From NCBI GenBank assembly GCA_030614785.1, contig JAUWTJ010000046.1, forward strand, positions 1 to 32,317: a stretch of DNA of 32,317 nt, written 5' to 3'. Numbering within the stretch: position 1 is the first letter of the stretch; each line of letters begins with the position of its first letter. The translations under genes and the position numbers were made by a program. This DNA is from Alphaproteobacteria bacterium. Lineage in GTDB: Bacteria > Pseudomonadota > Alphaproteobacteria > M2410. The notes under the pieces are model-generated. The model had not been told where the DNA came from. It did not search any database and saw nothing but the letters and a program-made list of their open reading frames with translations. Below, in pieces: positions 16,700-29,720 of the stretch.

Positions 16700-16728
16700 T
16701 TGACCCGGGCGTCCATGACCCTTATTGG
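16700..16728 (+). promoter_or_regulatory. metZ promoter
   Basis: TTGACC (16700-16705), a 17-bp spacer and TATTGG (16723-16728) form a plausible promoter. The expected start near 16735 coincides with the 5' end of the SAM-II aptamer, which supports the call. Confidence 0.5.
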
Positions 16729-16733
16729 GTAGC

Positions 16734-16811
16734 GCTCGTGGTGATTTGAGCCGACCGGCTTGCGGCCACAGGAGCGTCAACACGCCCCGTTTAAAACGCT
16801 AAAAGGTCGGG
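16734..16811 (+). promoter_or_regulatory. SAM-II riboswitch
   Basis: The sequence has the conserved SAM-II elements. P1 is GTGG (16738-16741) pairing with CCAC (16766-16769), extended by GCTC (16734-16737) with GAGC (16772-16775). TGATTTG follows P1, CTTGCGG closes the loop, and the downstream GCTAAAAGG starts at 16798. The pseudoknot is CCGACC (16751-16756) with GGTCGG (16805-16810). SAM-II aptamers control methionine and SAM synthesis genes in alphaproteobacteria, and here the gene is metZ. Binding of S-adenosylmethionine should reduce expression. Confidence 0.9.
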
Positions 16812-16820
16812 AGCACTGGT

Positions 16821-16850
16821 GCCCCGACCTCTTTTGGCGGGGCTTTTTTT
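16821..16850 (+). terminator. Intrinsic terminator of the SAM-II switch
   Basis: GCCCCG (16821-16826) pairs with CGGGGC (16838-16843), with CC/GG continuing inside past a bulged A, followed by seven Ts (16844-16850). The 5' half contains CCCGACC (16823-16829), which can instead pair with GGTCGGG (16805-16811) as an antiterminator. The latter is also the 3' side of the SAM-dependent pseudoknot. Confidence 0.8.
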
Positions 16851-16867
16851 ATGAGTGGATTTCACCC

Positions 16868-18070
16868 GTGAGCGAACAGAACAACAAGAACCAAAGCTTC
16901 CCGTGGAGCGCCCAGACCCAAATGGTCCATGGCGGAACCTTGCGCAGCCAGTTTGGCGAGACCTCCGAGGCCATCTTCATGACCTCGGGCTACGCCTATG
17001 AGAGCGCGGAGCAGGCCGCGGGCCGGTTTACCGAAGAAGACCCCGGCTTCACCTACTCCCGGTTTGATAACCCGACGGTCTCCATGTTTGAGGATCGCAT
17101 GGCACTGCTCGAAGGCGCAGAAGCAGCGCGCGCCACATCGACAGGCATGGCAGCGGTAACCGCAGCTCTGCTCAGCTACCTGTCTGCCGGTGATCACATC
17201 GTCGCAGCCAAAGCGCTCTTCGGGTCCTGTCGCTATGTGGTGGAGGATTTGTGTCCACGTTTCGGGATTACCACAACGTTGATCGACGGCACCGACAATG
17301 CGGCGTGGGAGCAAGCCGTGCAGCCCAACACCAAAGCCTTTTTCCTTGAGACCCCGTCCAATCCGACGCTGACCATCGTCGATCTGAAAGCCGTCTGCGA
17401 CATCGCCAATGCCAAAGATATCAAGGTCTTTGTCGATAATGTCTTTGCCACACCGATCTTGCAGAAGCCGCTCGAGCTTGGCGCTCATGTGGTGATCTAT
17501 TCGGGAACCAAGCATATCGATGGCCAGGGACGCTGCCTTGGCGGGGTTGTGCTATCCGATGAAAAATACATCCTGGAAACCTTGCGGCCCTTTATCCGCA
17601 ATACCGGGCCTTCGATCAGCCCGTTCAATGCATGGATCTTGCTAAAGAGCCTTGAGACGCTCGATTTGCGGATCCAGGCCCATTGCAACGGCGCCCGCAA
17701 GGTTGCGGATTTTCTGGCAGACCACAAGAATGTCACCCGGGTGCTTTATCCCGAGCGCGACGATCATCCGCAACACGCCCTTGCCATGTCGCAAATGAAG
17801 CGCGGGGCAACAGTCGTCGCTTTCGACGTCCGTGGCGGCAAGGCCGAGGCTTTTGCCTTCGAGAATGCTCTGGAAATCATCAAGATCTCCAACAATCTCG
17901 GCGATGCCAAAAGTCTCGTCACCCACCCGGCGACCACAACCCATTTTCGCCTGACACCCGAAGCACGCGCGGAGCTTGATATAAGTGACGCTCTTGTGCG
18001 TCTTTCCGTCGGACTGGAAGATGCCGGGGACCTCTGCACAGACCTTGATCGCGCACTTTCGCGGATTTAG
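16868..18070 (+). CDS. metZ: O-succinylhomoserine sulfhydrylase
   Basis: A 400-residue PLP enzyme of the Cys/Met metabolism family that makes homocysteine directly from O-succinylhomoserine and sulfide in the cytoplasm. Family motifs are present: the TYSRFDNPT segment (62-70), ETPSNPTL (161-168), VDNVFATP and the PLP lysine in YSGTKHIDGQGR (Lys215). The GTG at 16868 gives MSEQNNKNQ, the usual type of start for alphaproteobacterial MetZ. A six-codon ATG frame (16851-16871) ends with its TGA overlapping this GTG. Expression is set by the SAM-II riboswitch and terminator just upstream. MetZ is preferred over MetB because of the context. Confidence 0.94.
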   Translation: MSEQNNKNQSFPWSAQTQMVHGGTLRSQFGETSEAIFMTSGYAYESAEQAAGRFTEEDPGFTYSRFDNPTVSMFEDRMALLEGAEAARATSTGMAAVTAALLSYLSAGDHIVAAKALFGSCRYVVEDLCPRFGITTTLIDGTDNAAWEQAVQPNTKAFFLETPSNPTLTIVDLKAVCDIANAKDIKVFVDNVFATPILQKPLELGAHVVIYSGTKHIDGQGRCLGGVVLSDEKYILETLRPFIRNTGPSISPFNAWILLKSLETLDLRIQAHCNGARKVADFLADHKNVTRVLYPERDDHPQHALAMSQMKRGATVVAFDVRGGKAEAFAFENALEIIKISNNLGDAKSLVTHPATTTHFRLTPEARAELDISDALVRLSVGLEDAGDLCTDLDRALSRI

Positions 18071-23048: not shown

Positions 23049-23966
23049 TCAGTTTGCGTCCTCCGCGATGTCGGCAAGGGCCTCGTTGATCACATGACGG
23101 GAGGTCCGCACGATGACCGGATTTCTGTCGAGATAATAAGGTAACGCAACAAGCCCTGTGTAAAGCGCCCAGCCGCGCCCTCGCGCCCAGGTCGCCTCAT
23201 CGACACCCACCCCGGCGCGAAAGATATTCCGGCTCTCTCCGGTCAGGAGATTCCATGCGACAATCAAATCACAAGCCGGATCGCCCACACCCGCCAGACC
23301 CCAATCAATGACGCCGCTGATGCGGCCATCAAATATCAGCAGGTTTCCGCCATGGATGTCGCCATGAACCCAGACCGGCGCCTCTTGCCATGACGGCACC
23401 TCCAGGGCTGCTTCCCAGGCCCGGGATGCTGCTGAAGTATCAATGAGGTTTTCCAGAGCAGCAATGGACCTGCGCACGGTCGGGTCCAACACCGACAGGG
23501 CAACACCGCGATAATTGTTGTGCTTTCCCGAGCACGGTCCCCCGGCGGGGTCAATGCGCTGCAAGGCTCTTATAAATCCGGCCAGATCCCTTGCCGCCTG
23601 GTTCAAATCATCGAGCGCACCGGCCTGCACATCCTCGCCACCCAGCCATCTGTATACGGACCCGACCCAGGGATAACTCTCATTCGGTCGCCCTTGTGCA
23701 AGAGGAACCGGGATGGCGAGCGGAAGGTCCGGCGCGAGGCGCGGCAACCACTTTTGTTCCTTGTCCACCTGCTGCGTCGCCCAGGGCGCGCGCGGGATTC
23801 GAATGACCATATCGTCGCCGAGACTGAAAAGCGCATTATCTGTCCCGGCAGAGGCCACGGGCTCAACTCGAAGATGAGCCCAGTGCGGAAATTGTGTCGT
23901 TAACAGGTGGACTGCGAGATCAAGCGCGATATCCACCTGTTCTTCCAGCGCGTTGTTATTGGTCAT
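23049..23966 (-). CDS. Aminoglycoside phosphotransferase (APH) family kinase
   Basis: A 305-residue protein-kinase-like small-molecule kinase. Seen motifs are the catalytic loop HGDIHGGN (201-208, Asp203) and the metal-binding IDWGLAGVGDPACDL starting at residue 220. The N-lobe has the GTDNALFSLG nucleotide-binding region and VIRIPR with the lysine position replaced by arginine. Members phosphorylate aminoglycosides, other antibiotics or metabolites such as homoserine and choline; the target cannot be inferred. Its ATG overlaps the rsgA stop in an ATGA, so the two are translationally coupled. Confidence 0.88.
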   Translation of the reverse strand: MTNNNALEEQVDIALDLAVHLLTTQFPHWAHLRVEPVASAGTDNALFSLGDDMVIRIPRAPWATQQVDKEQKWLPRLAPDLPLAIPVPLAQGRPNESYPWVGSVYRWLGGEDVQAGALDDLNQAARDLAGFIRALQRIDPAGGPCSGKHNNYRGVALSVLDPTVRRSIAALENLIDTSAASRAWEAALEVPSWQEAPVWVHGDIHGGNLLIFDGRISGVIDWGLAGVGDPACDLIVAWNLLTGESRNIFRAGVGVDEATWARGRGWALYTGLVALPYYLDRNPVIVRTSRHVINEALADIAEDAN

Positions 23967-25039: not shown

Positions 25040-26121
25040 TGTTCTGCCTGTTTTTGAAACACAAAACAGCGCACCCACAGCAGAGGCATGCAGGTAAGCG
25101 GTGTGTCAGGCAGGGCCAGCCGTTAGCTGACTATTACGAACCCGCCTGAGGGTCAAAAGATACAATCATACTGTCCCTCCTTGATTCAGACATTCAGGGG
25201 ATCAACGCGGATCCGGTTATGCGGCAGAGAAAACTCTTCGCAACACTGTGTATACCCGAAAGACCGTACCATGAGCAAGATCAATTTCCGACGGCAGGCT
25301 GCTTCGGAACAGAGGGTGAAATGGATGCGGCAGTATTGGGGCTGAACATCGGACAATATTGCCAACGGTGCAGGACGAGGTCCGCTCTTGAATGAATAGC
25401 AGGCGTGCGAACAGGCGCTTGCCTGAGTCTCAGATTAGCCAAGAGCGGGCATTCCAAGAATCAGCAATTGATATTTAATCCGAGTTGATCGGTATTGAAA
25501 CAAACCGCTATCATAGTGGGCTCGTGCCTCAGATGTTTGCCCGGAAATATCATCGCTGTCTTATAGATGGGGATGCGGATCGTATAGTGGTCTGCCCATG
25601 GATGTGGCTGCCTCATGGGGGTCGGGTCACTATTTAGTGATAGCTTTTGCTGGACCTTAAGGTCCGTAGTTGATATGATAAATTAGTGAGATTTCAATCA
25701 GAGATCAAAGAAACCTGTAATTTCACTATTCGTTTGATTTTCACACCGCATATCACTGAAGTGCGATCGTAGGATATTCGATCACTTTGGAGCGTGAAGG
25801 CAAACTGCGCATAACAGACAACGACGACAACTAACGCAGTCAACACTCTTGGGAGAAGAGTAAGCTGTGCTATCGTGCTTGTCAGCACACTGGACTTTTG
25901 CACCCCGGTCGCTTCTCAGCCGGTGATATCATGGTCTTGTGCTGACGTTGTTTCTGGTACGAGCAGATTATCCGTTAAGAAACTTATTTTTTAATCGATG
26001 GTCCTGGTGTTGTCAGTCCACTAACCAAGTTAATCACGTGAAGGTGATAATGCCGTTGATCCGATCTATATAGCTCGGGGAAGGGCGCTCGCCCTCGCCT
26101 TATGGAGATCTAATTACAATT
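25040..26121. other. A/T-rich region of about 1.1 kb without a recognisable gene
   Basis: No frame on either strand looks like a real protein; the longest is a 69-codon minus-strand frame with a hydrophobic run and no ribosome site. The region marks the left boundary of the A/T-rich island. It contains the perfect palindrome GGACCTTAAGGTCC (25652-25665), the inverted repeat TCACTA-TT-TAGTGA (25627-25640), ATCAC-N6-GTGAT (26033-26048) and AGGGCG-CT-CGCCCT (26082-26095). The right-hand part must contain the promoter of the nucleotidyltransferase gene. It may be decayed foreign DNA. Confidence 0.5.
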
Positions 26122-26910
26122 ATGGTCAACGATAATCGTTTGACGACAGCATTGCTTTTGGCGGCCGGTACAGGCTCTCGCCTGCGTCCTTTGACCCTTG
26201 ATTCACCAAAATGCCTTACAGAAGTTGGCGGCGAAACTATTCTGGGTCGCTTGGTAGACAATCTCTGCTCGCAGGGATTTGATCGATTGGTGGTGGTGAC
26301 GGGATACCTGGACCATTGTGTGCGAGAATTTCTCGATGAATATGCAGCTGATTTGAAGATTGATTACGTTTTCAACCCTGTGTATCGAACAACCAATAAC
26401 ATCTACTCCCTTTGGCTGGCCCGCGAAGCTATCCAGGAGCCCTTTTTGTTGGTAGAGAGCGACCTGGTCTTTCACGGATCGATGCTCAAGGAGTTGTTGA
26501 AACCGGATAGAATCGCAATCTCCCGCATTTTACCCTGGATGAATGGAACAACCGTCGAACTTAATTCGCAAAATGGTGTCGAAGCGTTTCATGTCAGTCG
26601 TGATACTTGCGATACGAACCAGTATAAAACCGTCAATATCTGCAGCCTATCCTTGCAAAGTTGGCAAAGAATGATAGCGCGGTTAGACAGCTACATTTCC
26701 AACAATCGTGTCGGCGAATATTATGAAGCTGTATTTGCCGATATGGTAAGTGACGGAACACTCGAATTTGAAGCTGTTTTCTTTGATGAAAACAGGTGGT
26801 ATGAAGTCGATACTATGGATGATTTGGTTGAAGCCGAATTGCTCTTTCCAATGATTAAAAAGACTTCACCTGCTTCACCCGTATTACCTGCTGTGGCCAC
26901 CGAGTATTAA
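26122..26910 (+). CDS. LicC/PntC-like nucleotidyltransferase
   Basis: A 262-residue NTP-transferase (GT-A fold) protein. The nucleotide loop is LAAGTGSRLRPLT (13-25), followed by PKCLTEVGG (29-37), the NNIYSLW segment (92-98), a metal-binding ESD (112-114) and the second metal site WYEVDTMDDL (226-235). NNxYSL is typical of cytidylyltransferases acting on phosphocholine (LicC) or 2-aminoethylphosphonate (PntC) rather than sugar-1-phosphates. It would make a CDP-activated small alcohol phosphate in the cytoplasm. It is first of four same-strand genes, all A/T-rich compared with the flanks. The substrate is not determined; a sugar nucleotidyltransferase remains possible. Confidence 0.85.
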   Translation: MVNDNRLTTALLLAAGTGSRLRPLTLDSPKCLTEVGGETILGRLVDNLCSQGFDRLVVVTGYLDHCVREFLDEYAADLKIDYVFNPVYRTTNNIYSLWLAREAIQEPFLLVESDLVFHGSMLKELLKPDRIAISRILPWMNGTTVELNSQNGVEAFHVSRDTCDTNQYKTVNICSLSLQSWQRMIARLDSYISNNRVGEYYEAVFADMVSDGTLEFEAVFFDENRWYEVDTMDDLVEAELLFPMIKKTSPASPVLPAVATEY

Positions 26911-26957
26911 CTTCTGCCTCTGATACTGGATTTCTACCAGCCATAATGTGTAACCAT

Positions 26958-26992
26958 TGCCTGACTGAGCAAGTGAGGCATGCTTTTTGTTT
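26958..26992 (+). terminator. Possible intrinsic terminator/attenuator after the nucleotidyltransferase
   Basis: TGCCT (26958-26962) pairs with AGGCA (26976-26980), with a further ACT/AGT inside, followed by TGC and a T-rich run (26984-26992). It lies 30 bases before the aminotransferase start. The stem is modest, so it may only partly end transcripts of the first gene. Confidence 0.4.
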
Positions 26993-27021
26993 GTCGAACT
27001 AAACGATTAGGATCCAGATTA

Positions 27022-28161
27022 ATGTCTGTTCAAGATCAATTGTCCAGGGCGCAACTGTATGAAAAACTTGGGGCCACACATGGGGGATATTGGCGGTATG
27101 ATTTCGTCGATCACTCCTACCTTTACAATCTATATTTCCCTCCACAACGTTTTTTTGAATTGTTAAAAAGCAACATTCATGAGTTGGTTCAAAGTTATCC
27201 GGTTGCACAAGGCGAATTGGCGAATTGGGTTGGCACTTTGATTGATCAGACTCCCGAACGCATTGTAGTAGGAAATGGTGCTGCAGAACTTATCAAAATC
27301 GTCTCGGGGCATCTAGCGAACAAGCTGATTGTTCCTGTGCCGTCGTTCAATGAATATGCCAACGCTGCTCCAGAAGGGACCATCGTTGAGTTTCCGCTTG
27401 ATCCATTGTCTTTTCAGCTGGACGTAGATCAATTTGCTGCCGAAGCACTGCGTTGCAAAGCTGATGTTGCGATTGTAGTGTCGCCGAACAACCCGACGTC
27501 AATGTTGGTGCCAAAGGCTGATCTTATTCGCCTGATTGAAAAACTGGCAGAGCAAGAGTGTATGCTGATCCTGGATGAATCTTTTATTGATTTTGCAGAG
27601 AACCGCGACCAGGAGACCTTTGAAAGGGATATAGCACGATACCCAAACCTCGCGATTTTCAAAAGCATGAGCAAGGCATATGGTATCTGCGGGCTGCGGA
27701 TCGGATATATGCTTACGGCCAATGCCGATTTCGCTGAAAAAGTTCGAGCAGGACTACATATTTGGAACTTGAATGGTTTTGCGGAAACTTTTTTGGAAAA
27801 CGCCCCTGACTATCGTGAAGAGTTTGAAGCAAGCTGCGCCAAGGTGCGCGAAGATCGGGATCAATTTTATCAAGATCTCTGTTCGATCCAGGGAATGGTT
27901 GTTTATAAGCCGGATGCCAACTATATTTTTTGCCGCCTTCCGGATCACGCGCCTTCCGGCCCCGAATTAGCTCTAAGCTTGTTCGTTGAGCACAATATAT
28001 ATATCAAACATTGCGAAGGTAAGAGCATGCCGGAATCGGATCGCTATATGCGTATAGCCAGTCGTACTCCAGTTGAAAATGCCAAACTTTGTGCCGTGCT
28101 TAATAACGTATTGGCCTCAGAGAACACTATGACTTCGGTCAATAATACAGTGTCAGAGTAA
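27022..28161 (+). CDS. HisC/CobD-like PLP-dependent aminotransferase or decarboxylase
   Basis: A 379-residue fold-type I PLP enzyme. It has NGAAELI (85-91), PSFNEY (107-112), SPNNPTS (154-160), LDESFIDF (184-191) and the PLP lysine Lys218 in SMSKAYGICGLRIGY. This layout is shared by histidinol-phosphate aminotransferase (HisC) and threonine-phosphate decarboxylase (CobD). No histidine or cobalamin genes are nearby, so I infer a phosphorylated amino-acid or amino-alcohol substrate linked to the cytidylyltransferase. TAGGA is ten bases before the ATG at 27022. The next gene follows after four bases. Transaminase and decarboxylase activity cannot be separated by eye. Confidence 0.85.
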   Translation: MSVQDQLSRAQLYEKLGATHGGYWRYDFVDHSYLYNLYFPPQRFFELLKSNIHELVQSYPVAQGELANWVGTLIDQTPERIVVGNGAAELIKIVSGHLANKLIVPVPSFNEYANAAPEGTIVEFPLDPLSFQLDVDQFAAEALRCKADVAIVVSPNNPTSMLVPKADLIRLIEKLAEQECMLILDESFIDFAENRDQETFERDIARYPNLAIFKSMSKAYGICGLRIGYMLTANADFAEKVRAGLHIWNLNGFAETFLENAPDYREEFEASCAKVREDRDQFYQDLCSIQGMVVYKPDANYIFCRLPDHAPSGPELALSLFVEHNIYIKHCEGKSMPESDRYMRIASRTPVENAKLCAVLNNVLASENTMTSVNNTVSE

Positions 28162-28165
28162 ACGC

Positions 28166-28831
28166 ATGTCAGAAGATAAAACGATAGACGCCCCGCAGGC
28201 GACACGCCCGACAATCCTCTCCTTTGCCAAAGACTTGCCAAATCTATGCTCGCTGGCAGGTCTTTTGTCCGCCATTCTGGCAATCTATTTCGCTATCCTC
28301 GGTGTTTTCCCAGCCGCTATGATCGGGCTGATCTGGGCTGTGTTCTTTGATTGGAGTGATGGCATTATCGCCCGTGGTATGAAGGGCAGAACTGAACAGC
28401 AGCGCAATTTCGGTGGTCAACTCGATTCGCTCATTGACATCGTCAGCTTCGGTCTGTGTCCAGCTGTCGTTCTATTAAGCTATGGTGATTTTAATCCCTG
28501 GTTCATTCCCGGCGCCTTTTGTATTGTCGCGGCAGGCGTGCTCCGACTAAGTTATTATAACGTGTACGGATTGGTCCGCGAATCAACTTATCAAGGATTG
28601 GCAATTGATAATAATGGCCTGATTCTGGTTTCATTTTTTGTTTTGGACGGTTTTATTGGTTCAGCGATTTTTACCATATTGCTCTACATTTCCATCCTGG
28701 GATTGGCGATCCTGAATGTGGCTCCGATTAGAACACCAAAACTCGAGGGCGGTTGGTATTACGCGATTACAGCCTATACACTTTTGCTGACTTTGTTTTT
28801 TTGCTGGCGGCTAATTCATGCGGTGGGATGA
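28166..28831 (+). CDS. CDP-alcohol phosphatidyltransferase family protein, PssA-like
   Basis: A 221-residue integral membrane enzyme. The family motif is present as D62, D65-G66, A69-R70, G83, D87 and D91 (DWSDGIIAR ... FGGQLDSLID). The spacer between AR and G is 12 residues, four more than the canonical eight. The following DIVSFGLCPA resembles phosphatidylserine synthase (PssA). About six hydrophobic segments are seen. Such enzymes join a CDP-activated partner to an alcohol, releasing CMP. With a cytidylyltransferase in the same cluster, the CDP donor may be the small head group rather than CDP-diacylglycerol. It starts four bases after the PLP enzyme gene. Confidence 0.88.
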   Translation: MSEDKTIDAPQATRPTILSFAKDLPNLCSLAGLLSAILAIYFAILGVFPAAMIGLIWAVFFDWSDGIIARGMKGRTEQQRNFGGQLDSLIDIVSFGLCPAVVLLSYGDFNPWFIPGAFCIVAAGVLRLSYYNVYGLVRESTYQGLAIDNNGLILVSFFVLDGFIGSAIFTILLYISILGLAILNVAPIRTPKLEGGWYYAITAYTLLLTLFFCWRLIHAVG

Positions 28832-28901
28832 CACAAGAGTGTTGACTTGCAGAAATTGTAAGAATTGAACCGTTTGCATGATAATCCAATGGAAATGAGA
28901 A

Positions 28902-29720
28902 ATGTCTGAAATCAATCCGACTCTTGTCAGTCGATACTTTGAGGGCGTAAAAACCTCTATTCTCGGCCCCTATATGATGGATGGGTATGGGTTTCCCAAT
29001 AGTGCCGGCGACTATCGGTTCAAAGCAGAAACCCAAATCGTTGAAAGTTTGCTTAACGGTGTGGATCGTGATGGCGCGGTGCTCGATCTCGGTTGCGGCG
29101 TAGGCTATTGGGCAGAGGCGTTCGCGCAAGAGTTTTCTTCCGTTGTAGCGGTTGAGGGGAGCGCGAATCTTTACGATGCGCTTGTTACGCGATGTCTCCC
29201 ATACCCCAATATTCAATCAGTACACAGTAACGTATTGAGATTTCAGCCCAAGGGTGATTTTAGTTTGACCTTCCTTGGCGGCCTTCTCATGTATCTTGAT
29301 GAAGACGATGTTGTCGGCTTGCTCGGCAATTTGAAGAAACATCTGAAGCCGGGTGGAATTATTCTGTGTCGTGAATCAACAGTGAGAGGCGACACCCTTT
29401 CGCTCACCGGAGACTATTCTGTCGTGTATCGTTCAATCGAGAATTATCGGCGTATATTCAAGAATAGTGGGTTAGCTGTGCGGGTGATTGAGCAAAACGA
29501 GCCCTATGTGCTCCTGCAGATGGGATGTGAACTTATGGACAAGTGGAAAGCCTTGACGCCGAAGCCCTTTCAAATGCTTCCCCTTATGGGGCGCCTGGCC
29601 TATTGGGGACTGCGAGCTATGAACCCCTGGATCTTAAATGTCCCTAAGACATTTGAAACCCCGTTTCCAATTTTAGAAAACCACTTCTTTGTGCTCGAAG
29701 CCATCGATCAAACTGAGTAA
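28902..29720 (+). CDS. Class I SAM-dependent methyltransferase
   Basis: A 272-residue soluble Rossmann-fold methyltransferase. Motif I is VLDLGCGVGYW (60-70), the acidic end of strand 2 is VVAVEGS, motif post-I/II lies around FSLTFLGGLLMYL, and LKPGGIILCRE is the typical motif III. The C-terminal part (residues 200-272) is unusual and aromatic-rich. Candidate roles are N-methylation of an ethanolamine-like head group or methylation of a lipid or polysaccharide substituent. It is the last gene of the island, 70 bp after the CDP-alcohol transferase, with a GGAAATGAG upstream. Confidence 0.87.
   Translation: MSEINPTLVSRYFEGVKTSILGPYMMDGYGFPNSAGDYRFKAETQIVESLLNGVDRDGAVLDLGCGVGYWAEAFAQEFSSVVAVEGSANLYDALVTRCLPYPNIQSVHSNVLRFQPKGDFSLTFLGGLLMYLDEDDVVGLLGNLKKHLKPGGIILCRESTVRGDTLSLTGDYSVVYRSIENYRRIFKNSGLAVRVIEQNEPYVLLQMGCELMDKWKALTPKPFQMLPLMGRLAYWGLRAMNPWILNVPKTFETPFPILENHFFVLEAIDQTE

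Follow-up and report, generated by a model that had tools for sequence, protein, structure and literature searches.

A mobile trio of genes, shared by bacteria and methanogens, that may lead from phosphoserine to a CDP-ethanolamine-derived product

Here we describe a four-gene cassette carried by a 32,317-nucleotide stretch of DNA (contig JAUWTJ010000046.1 of assembly GCA_030614785.1, hereafter the window) from a bacterium of the Alphaproteobacteria, which encodes a cytidylyltransferase (NT), a pyridoxal phosphate enzyme (PLP), a membrane cytidine diphosphate (CDP)-alcohol phosphotransferase (CDPOH) and a methyltransferase (MT). The first three genes form a unit that recurs in many phyla. In the reading that we prefer, and to which we grant slightly less than an even chance, the cassette would convert phosphoserine into CDP-ethanolamine and move phosphoethanolamine to an acceptor, likely small and soluble, while MT would perform N-methylation. 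The genes, the linkage of the mobile trio, the family memberships and the conserved residues are observed; from these we infer the substrates, the order of the steps and the acceptor. The four open reading frames (ORFs) are co-oriented on the + strand and span 26122-29720, as the first-pass annotation, made from the sequence alone, had placed them:

25098-26121, no strand: upstream stretch without an ORF of at least 80 amino acids, G+C 48%.
26122-26910, + strand: NT, predicted LicC/PntC-like cytidine triphosphate (CTP):phospho-amino-alcohol cytidylyltransferase, assigned from its NTP_transf_3 match, nearest structures and conserved glutamates.
26980-28161, + strand: PLP, CobD-like pyridoxal phosphate enzyme, probably a phosphoserine decarboxylase, assigned from models, nearest structures and conserved residues.
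28166-28831, + strand: CDPOH, membrane CDP-alcohol phosphotransferase resembling phosphatidylserine synthase (PSS), assigned from its 12-residue spacer, DNN replacing PxPAG, and predicted fold.
28902-29720, + strand: MT, putative accessory S-adenosylmethionine (SAM)-dependent N-methyltransferase, nearest by sequence to plant phosphoethanolamine N-methyltransferases.

The four genes have a G+C content of 45-48%, with 44-52% at third codon positions, against 63-75% at third positions in nine other window genes. This bears out their earlier description as A/T-rich and, judged by composition, they are foreign to the genome and would constitute a horizontally acquired cassette. The upstream stretch probably belongs to the acquired island as its left part, and the promoter of the cassette probably lies there. 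Within the cassette, an Rfam search returned no match, and scans for promoters and terminators gave matches at chance level only.

With the PLP protein as query, a single scan covering about 85,000 species genomes yielded 79 loci with homologues of 61-84% identity. The carriers belong to the Pseudomonadota, Thermodesulfobacteriota, Myxococcota (as labelled), Bacteroidota, Kiritimatiellota, Spirochaetota and others, and include nine methanogen records. NT lies directly upstream of PLP in nearly all of the 79 loci with sufficient contig, and CDPOH directly downstream in 69 of them, so that nearly all usable loci keep these three genes contiguous and in one orientation; this linkage exceeds chance. 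Moreover, the pairwise distances of NT, PLP and CDPOH correlate with each other (r 0.74-0.86, computed without L047, where an unrelated aminotransferase distorts the value), and the three proteins thus diverge together and are inherited as a mobile trio. The proposal that all four genes form one set holds for the trio, and the worry that they would not co-occur elsewhere has not been borne out. MT is instead an optional accessory and not a fixed part of the cassette: of the 59 loci in which the sequence continues for 900 bases or more past CDPOH, 11 have an MT homologue next to the trio and 16 have an ATP-grasp ligase, a distant relative of LdmS and BesA that resembles amino-acid ligases. The two were found together in none of the 59 loci (probability of zero overlap by chance about 0.02, without correction for phylogeny), and apart from these two alternative accessories no further gene is conserved around the trio across the loci.

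In the PLP tree, the family of the window is separated from its distant relatives (98/97), and the methanogens form a single clade (98/93) nested among bacterial rows; inter-domain transfer of the cassette, between bacteria and archaea, is therefore likely on the present tree. Within the window's class, 385 genomes were sampled and a single one has the cassette, as do none of 58 nearer relatives of the window genome; in the phylum of L057 it was found in 3 of 395 genomes, with no intermediate scores. Variants of the arrangement also occur. A metagenome-assembled genome of Methanosarcina (L038, 7046-13368) carries two copies of the trio in tandem, and in L046 (9070-10428) and L035 (6301-6907) the NT-PLP pair is followed by a class III aminotransferase replacing CDPOH, on contigs that end shortly after. 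An osmolyte role read from neighbouring genes was rejected, because the ProV-like gene near L037 is non-recurrent and the rest of that cluster consists of different ABC ATPases.

PLP matches the Aminotran_1_2 family, and its true start is likely 27022, where family conservation begins and AGGA precedes the ATG, instead of 26980. It scores 172.8 bits with the CobD model (cut-off 290.55) and 142.1 bits with the HisC model (cut-off 276.55). Its nearest solved structures are 6oux, 3ftb and CobD 1lc5. The SMUL_1544 protein decarboxylates phosphoserine, and 6oux is presumably that protein. The name carried by 6oux is the one used for SMUL_1544 of Sulfurospirillum multivorans (PMC7755780). In the PLP family, H34-G-G, K232, F202, K343 and R358 are invariant or nearly so, and the HGG motif is also present in relatives that have no pepM. 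Likeness to CobD and 6oux thus extends to the HGG motif, the pyridoxal phosphate lysine (K232) and the equivalent of CobD R337 (R358). Unlike CobD, the window enzyme is encoded outside a cobalamin operon, and K343 replaces R323, which we take to be, with R337, one of the substrate arginines of CobD. Altogether, PLP is probably a phosphoserine decarboxylase. Participation in histidine synthesis, which the first-pass annotation had named as a threat to its proposal, was rejected, as a separate HisC-like gene is found elsewhere in the genome.

PLP could instead be an aminotransferase. Its product would then be serinol phosphate, made from dihydroxyacetone phosphate as in the synthesis of the Campylobacter capsule, or a different amino-alcohol phosphate, for instance aminopropanol phosphate derived from phosphothreonine, with the later steps unchanged. 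This explanation draws on the fact that the PLP family scores with HisC-type aminotransferases as well, and on one variant locus (L006) whose LicD is nearest to Mf1, the mycoplasma glycolipid cholinephosphotransferase; the glycolipid associated with Mf1 contains serinol. We consider it unlikely, since the window protein and all six relatives tested score higher with the CobD model than with HisC, and since MT is nearest by sequence to phosphoethanolamine methyltransferases.

NT matches the NTP_transf_3 and NTP_transferase families of Pfam/NCBIfam (47 bits for NTP_transf_3), and contains GTGSR-x8-PK, in agreement with the GxG(T/S)Rx4-8PK signature. Its nearest solved relatives are LicC (1jyk) and PntC (6pd1), with about a quarter of residues identical. 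In PntC, E104 and E196 touch the amine of 2-aminoethylphosphonate (PMC6697681). The aligned residues of NT, E112 and E202, are conserved in at least 97% of 75 members, which speaks against the sugar-phosphate substrate that had earlier been held out as a possible objection, and NT would accordingly be placed among LicC/PntC-like cytidylyltransferases activating an amino-alcohol phosphate with CTP. The setting differs from that of PntC and LicC: in the whole window genome there is no pepM over the cut-off and no PF01633 match for choline kinase, in keeping with the earlier statement that this is neither the phosphonolipid nor the lic pathway. The sole strong PEP_mutase-family match, C148, was rejected as pepM, since EDW takes the place of the PepM motif EDKxxxxxNS. 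The absence of pepM and choline kinase, taken together with the conserved residues, favours a predicted route from phosphoserine through phosphoethanolamine to CDP-ethanolamine.

The closest precedent, missed by the first-pass annotation, is FrbH of FR-900098 biosynthesis, which converts 2-amino-4-phosphonobutyrate into cytidine monophosphate (CMP)-3-aminopropylphosphonate (PMC8007912; also PMC6697681), its substrate, a phosphonate, being similar in shape to phosphoserine. FrbH likewise combines a LicC-type cytidylyltransferase with a pyridoxal phosphate decarboxylase whose substrate is an analogue of a phospho-amino acid, and its essential lysine K38 has an equivalent here, K30; we liken the two through the published description of FrbH. 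The window differs in having two separate ORFs, no pepM, and a CDP-alcohol enzyme next to them. A plasmid search retrieved distant PLP relatives of 28-46% identity and, in answer to a search proposed by the first-pass annotation, fusions of NT and PLP in one protein, from Priestia, Erwinia, Rahnella and Fusobacterium (L099, L100, L105, L106); these have the FrbH make-up and, in Priestia, Erwinia and Rahnella, are followed by a CDP-alcohol enzyme.

The precedent raises the question of whether the cassette itself belongs to a phosphonate pathway, with a phosphono-amino acid leading to an aminoalkylphosphonate ester, and several rhizobial relatives do come from records with pepM. We regard this as very improbable: beyond its absence from the window genome, pepM is over the cut-off in just 2 of 30 carrier genomes, and position 343 is R in the relatives with pepM in their record (L095, L096, L112) and K in the window family and in the pepM-less relatives (L097, L099, L100, L105, L106). 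The fused protein of NGR234 (L098) was omitted from this comparison because its pyridoxal phosphate lysine is missing in the alignment. The K/R exchange correlates with the presence of pepM but does not amount to a rule, as CobD has R and yet acts on a phosphate.

Some of the plasmid relatives lie in clusters of their own. In Priestia megaterium QM B1551 plasmid pBM700 (L099, 1847-9951), the fused protein and the CDP-alcohol enzyme are accompanied by two ATP-grasp proteins, an AAC(3)-like acetyltransferase and a second 1-deoxy-D-xylulose 5-phosphate reductoisomerase (DXR), and pepM is absent from the plasmid. We regard these genes as a candidate cluster for making a DXR inhibitor of the phosphate type, similar to fosfoxacin, the second DXR being the putative resistant copy of its target. 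Mesorhizobium and Agrobacterium plasmids (L096, L107, L111) carry clusters of pepM, an aminotransferase and a 'phosphocholine cytidylyltransferase', to which L107 and L111 add a CDP-alcohol enzyme; these are likely phosphonate ester clusters, and the same kind of cytidylyltransferase is found on other Agrobacterium plasmids.

CDPOH matches CDP-OH_P_transf and is PSS-like in Pfam/NCBIfam, with 77.1 bits for the pssA model, under the cut-off of 107. The CDP-alcohol signature DxxDGxxAR(n)GxxxDxxxD is present, with D62..D91 invariant. Its spacer counts 12 residues instead of the usual 8 and is constant in the family members inspected, so that the longer spacer reported earlier is real; it is no peculiarity of CDPOH, however, since the Pcs of the same genome also has 12. 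The predicted fold (pLDDT 83.5) is closest to MjPSS (7pow/7b1k). Serine is contacted in MjPSS by D62, S63, D66 and F105 (PMC8633023), which align with D87, S88, D91 and F/Y131 of CDPOH; MjPSS R101 is also kept (R127). In contrast to phosphatidylserine and archaetidylserine synthases, CDPOH has Y130 in place of R104 and DNN where MjPSS and the PssA of the window genome have a PxPAG-type motif, and its operon contains a cytidylyltransferase, which would make a soluble CDP donor available. The pairing of a cytidylyltransferase with a CDP-alcohol enzyme to make a soluble phosphodiester is known from inositol-phosphate cytidylyltransferase/DIPP synthase, whose substrate differs, whose enzyme is fused, and which is distant in sequence and fold (E 0.06).

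The nature of the acceptor separates our preferred reading from its main rival, in which a CDP-amino-alcohol donates to diacylglycerol (archaeol in archaea) and yields an ethanolamine-type or N-methylated phospholipid, as in a bacterial Kennedy pathway. This remains a possibility of some weight, though we lean away from it. In its favour, phospholipid synthases are closest to CDPOH in sequence and fold, and the four carriers without phosphatidylserine decarboxylase, three of them Spirochaetales, could make phosphatidylethanolamine via the cassette; Treponema denticola makes phosphatidylcholine through CDP-choline. A plain lipid product is disfavoured because 26 of 30 carriers have phosphatidylserine decarboxylase and the window genome encodes PssA, Psd and Pcs, so that the cassette would be redundant unless the head group differs; most carriers are predicted to make phosphatidylethanolamine already by the conventional route. 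Furthermore, the fold match of CDPOH to CEPT1 is poor (E 0.34) and no lipid gene is conserved near the trio. The lipid head group proposed by the first-pass annotation is thus unsupported. A soluble product is supported by the ligase-type alternative accessory and by the neighbourhoods of plasmid relatives of CDPOH, which in rhizobia and Roseibium adjoin asparagine-synthase-like enzymes, glutamate cyclases, exporters, alkaline-phosphatase-type hydrolases and ABC importers. These are hints and not proof. Plasmids of Rhizobium, Roseibium and Pelagibacterium (L108, L109, L110) hold clusters of a CDP-alcohol enzyme, an NTP transferase, a GHMP kinase and an asparagine-synthase-like enzyme, some with a glutamate cyclase, a phosphatase-type hydrolase and an ABC transporter, which would lead to an apparently undescribed small phosphodiester.

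Several points weigh against our interpretation as a whole. The activities of all members are predicted. The substrate of PLP is not fixed by the comparison, because its score is under the CobD cut-off and CobD R323 is missing. The plasmid relatives of CDPOH are merely 31-37% identical, and a lipid acceptor would be compatible with the phospholipid synthases nearest to it, CDP-alcohol enzymes being able to accept different lipid cores (PMC8633023). Finally, a fold search with MT ranks other N-methyltransferases, NTMT1-type first, above the phosphoethanolamine enzymes.

A further alternative is a surface glycan as the acceptor, to which the cassette would add phosphoethanolamine, methylated or not. 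In L006, L007 and L023, a LicD-like protein and a different CDP-alcohol enzyme take the place of CDPOH, accompanied by a histidine phosphatase on contigs that extend far enough; L029 resembles this arrangement without a LicD match. The LicD-like gene inside the cassette of L006 and L007 would suit a glycan acceptor, as would the LicD near the fused Fusobacterium protein, whose surroundings read by eye as O-antigen type. Yet no glycosyltransferase or polysaccharide gene is conserved beside the trio and a small membrane CDP-alcohol enzyme would be an unusual glycan transferase, which makes this alternative improbable.

MT is a class I SAM methyltransferase in Pfam/NCBIfam. Its nearest solved relatives by sequence are the plant phosphoethanolamine N-methyltransferases, in their first domain, with which it has the RES, YR and GC blocks in common, and it probably adds methyl groups in the version of the pathway proposed for the window genome. 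The plant and protozoan phosphobase route shares the logic of a phosphobase, methylation, CTP activation and CDP-alcohol transfer; the window route would differ by starting from phosphoserine via a CobD-like enzyme, with MT optional.

In the preferred scheme, PLP would decarboxylate O-phospho-L-serine to phosphoethanolamine, which NT would convert with CTP into CDP-ethanolamine; by analogy with FrbH, these two steps may run in reverse order. CDPOH would then move phosphoethanolamine from CDP-ethanolamine onto a hydroxyl of the acceptor, with release of CMP. The acceptor would most likely be a small soluble molecule, possibly serine, as the serine site of the PSS family is largely retained. MT would N-methylate the ethanolamine part, at the stage of the phosphobase or of the product. 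The order of enzymes suggested by the first-pass annotation, from PLP through NT and CDPOH to MT, is largely supported. A more specific version, which we put forward as a long shot, is a soluble serine-derived phosphodiester, e.g. L-serine phosphoethanolamine (the EC 2.7.8.4 reaction), with phosphoserine as the source of the donor and serine as the acceptor at the retained PSS-type site, the product being methylated or ligated. It would be the first genetically defined pathway of this kind, a stand-alone unit across bacteria and archaea whose product is perhaps a compatible solute; we know of no gene assigned to EC 2.7.8.4.

Elsewhere in the window, a SAM_alpha riboswitch (16728-16822, + strand, 38.9 bits) lies at the start of an ORF (16760-18070) that reads as a homocysteine-synthesis sulfhydrylase. 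About 2 kb upstream of the cassette, on the opposite strand, an APH-family phosphotransferase (23049-23966, - strand) matches APH(3') models weakly and far under the cut-off.

In the literature that we searched there is no description of the cassette, and nothing direct on a phosphoserine decarboxylase/CDP-ethanolamine cassette, on 6OUX or on Cj1436. The enzyme classes are all known, while their combination and distribution are new relative to this literature. A trio whose PLP remains 61-84% identical across phyla and methanogens, co-inherited and with no other conserved context, points to a self-sufficient product that is useful in very different cells. If our interpretation is correct, the cassette would provide a kinase-free route from phosphoserine to CDP-ethanolamine, and FrbH-type chemistry would reach beyond phosphonate antibiotics into ordinary phosphate metabolism.

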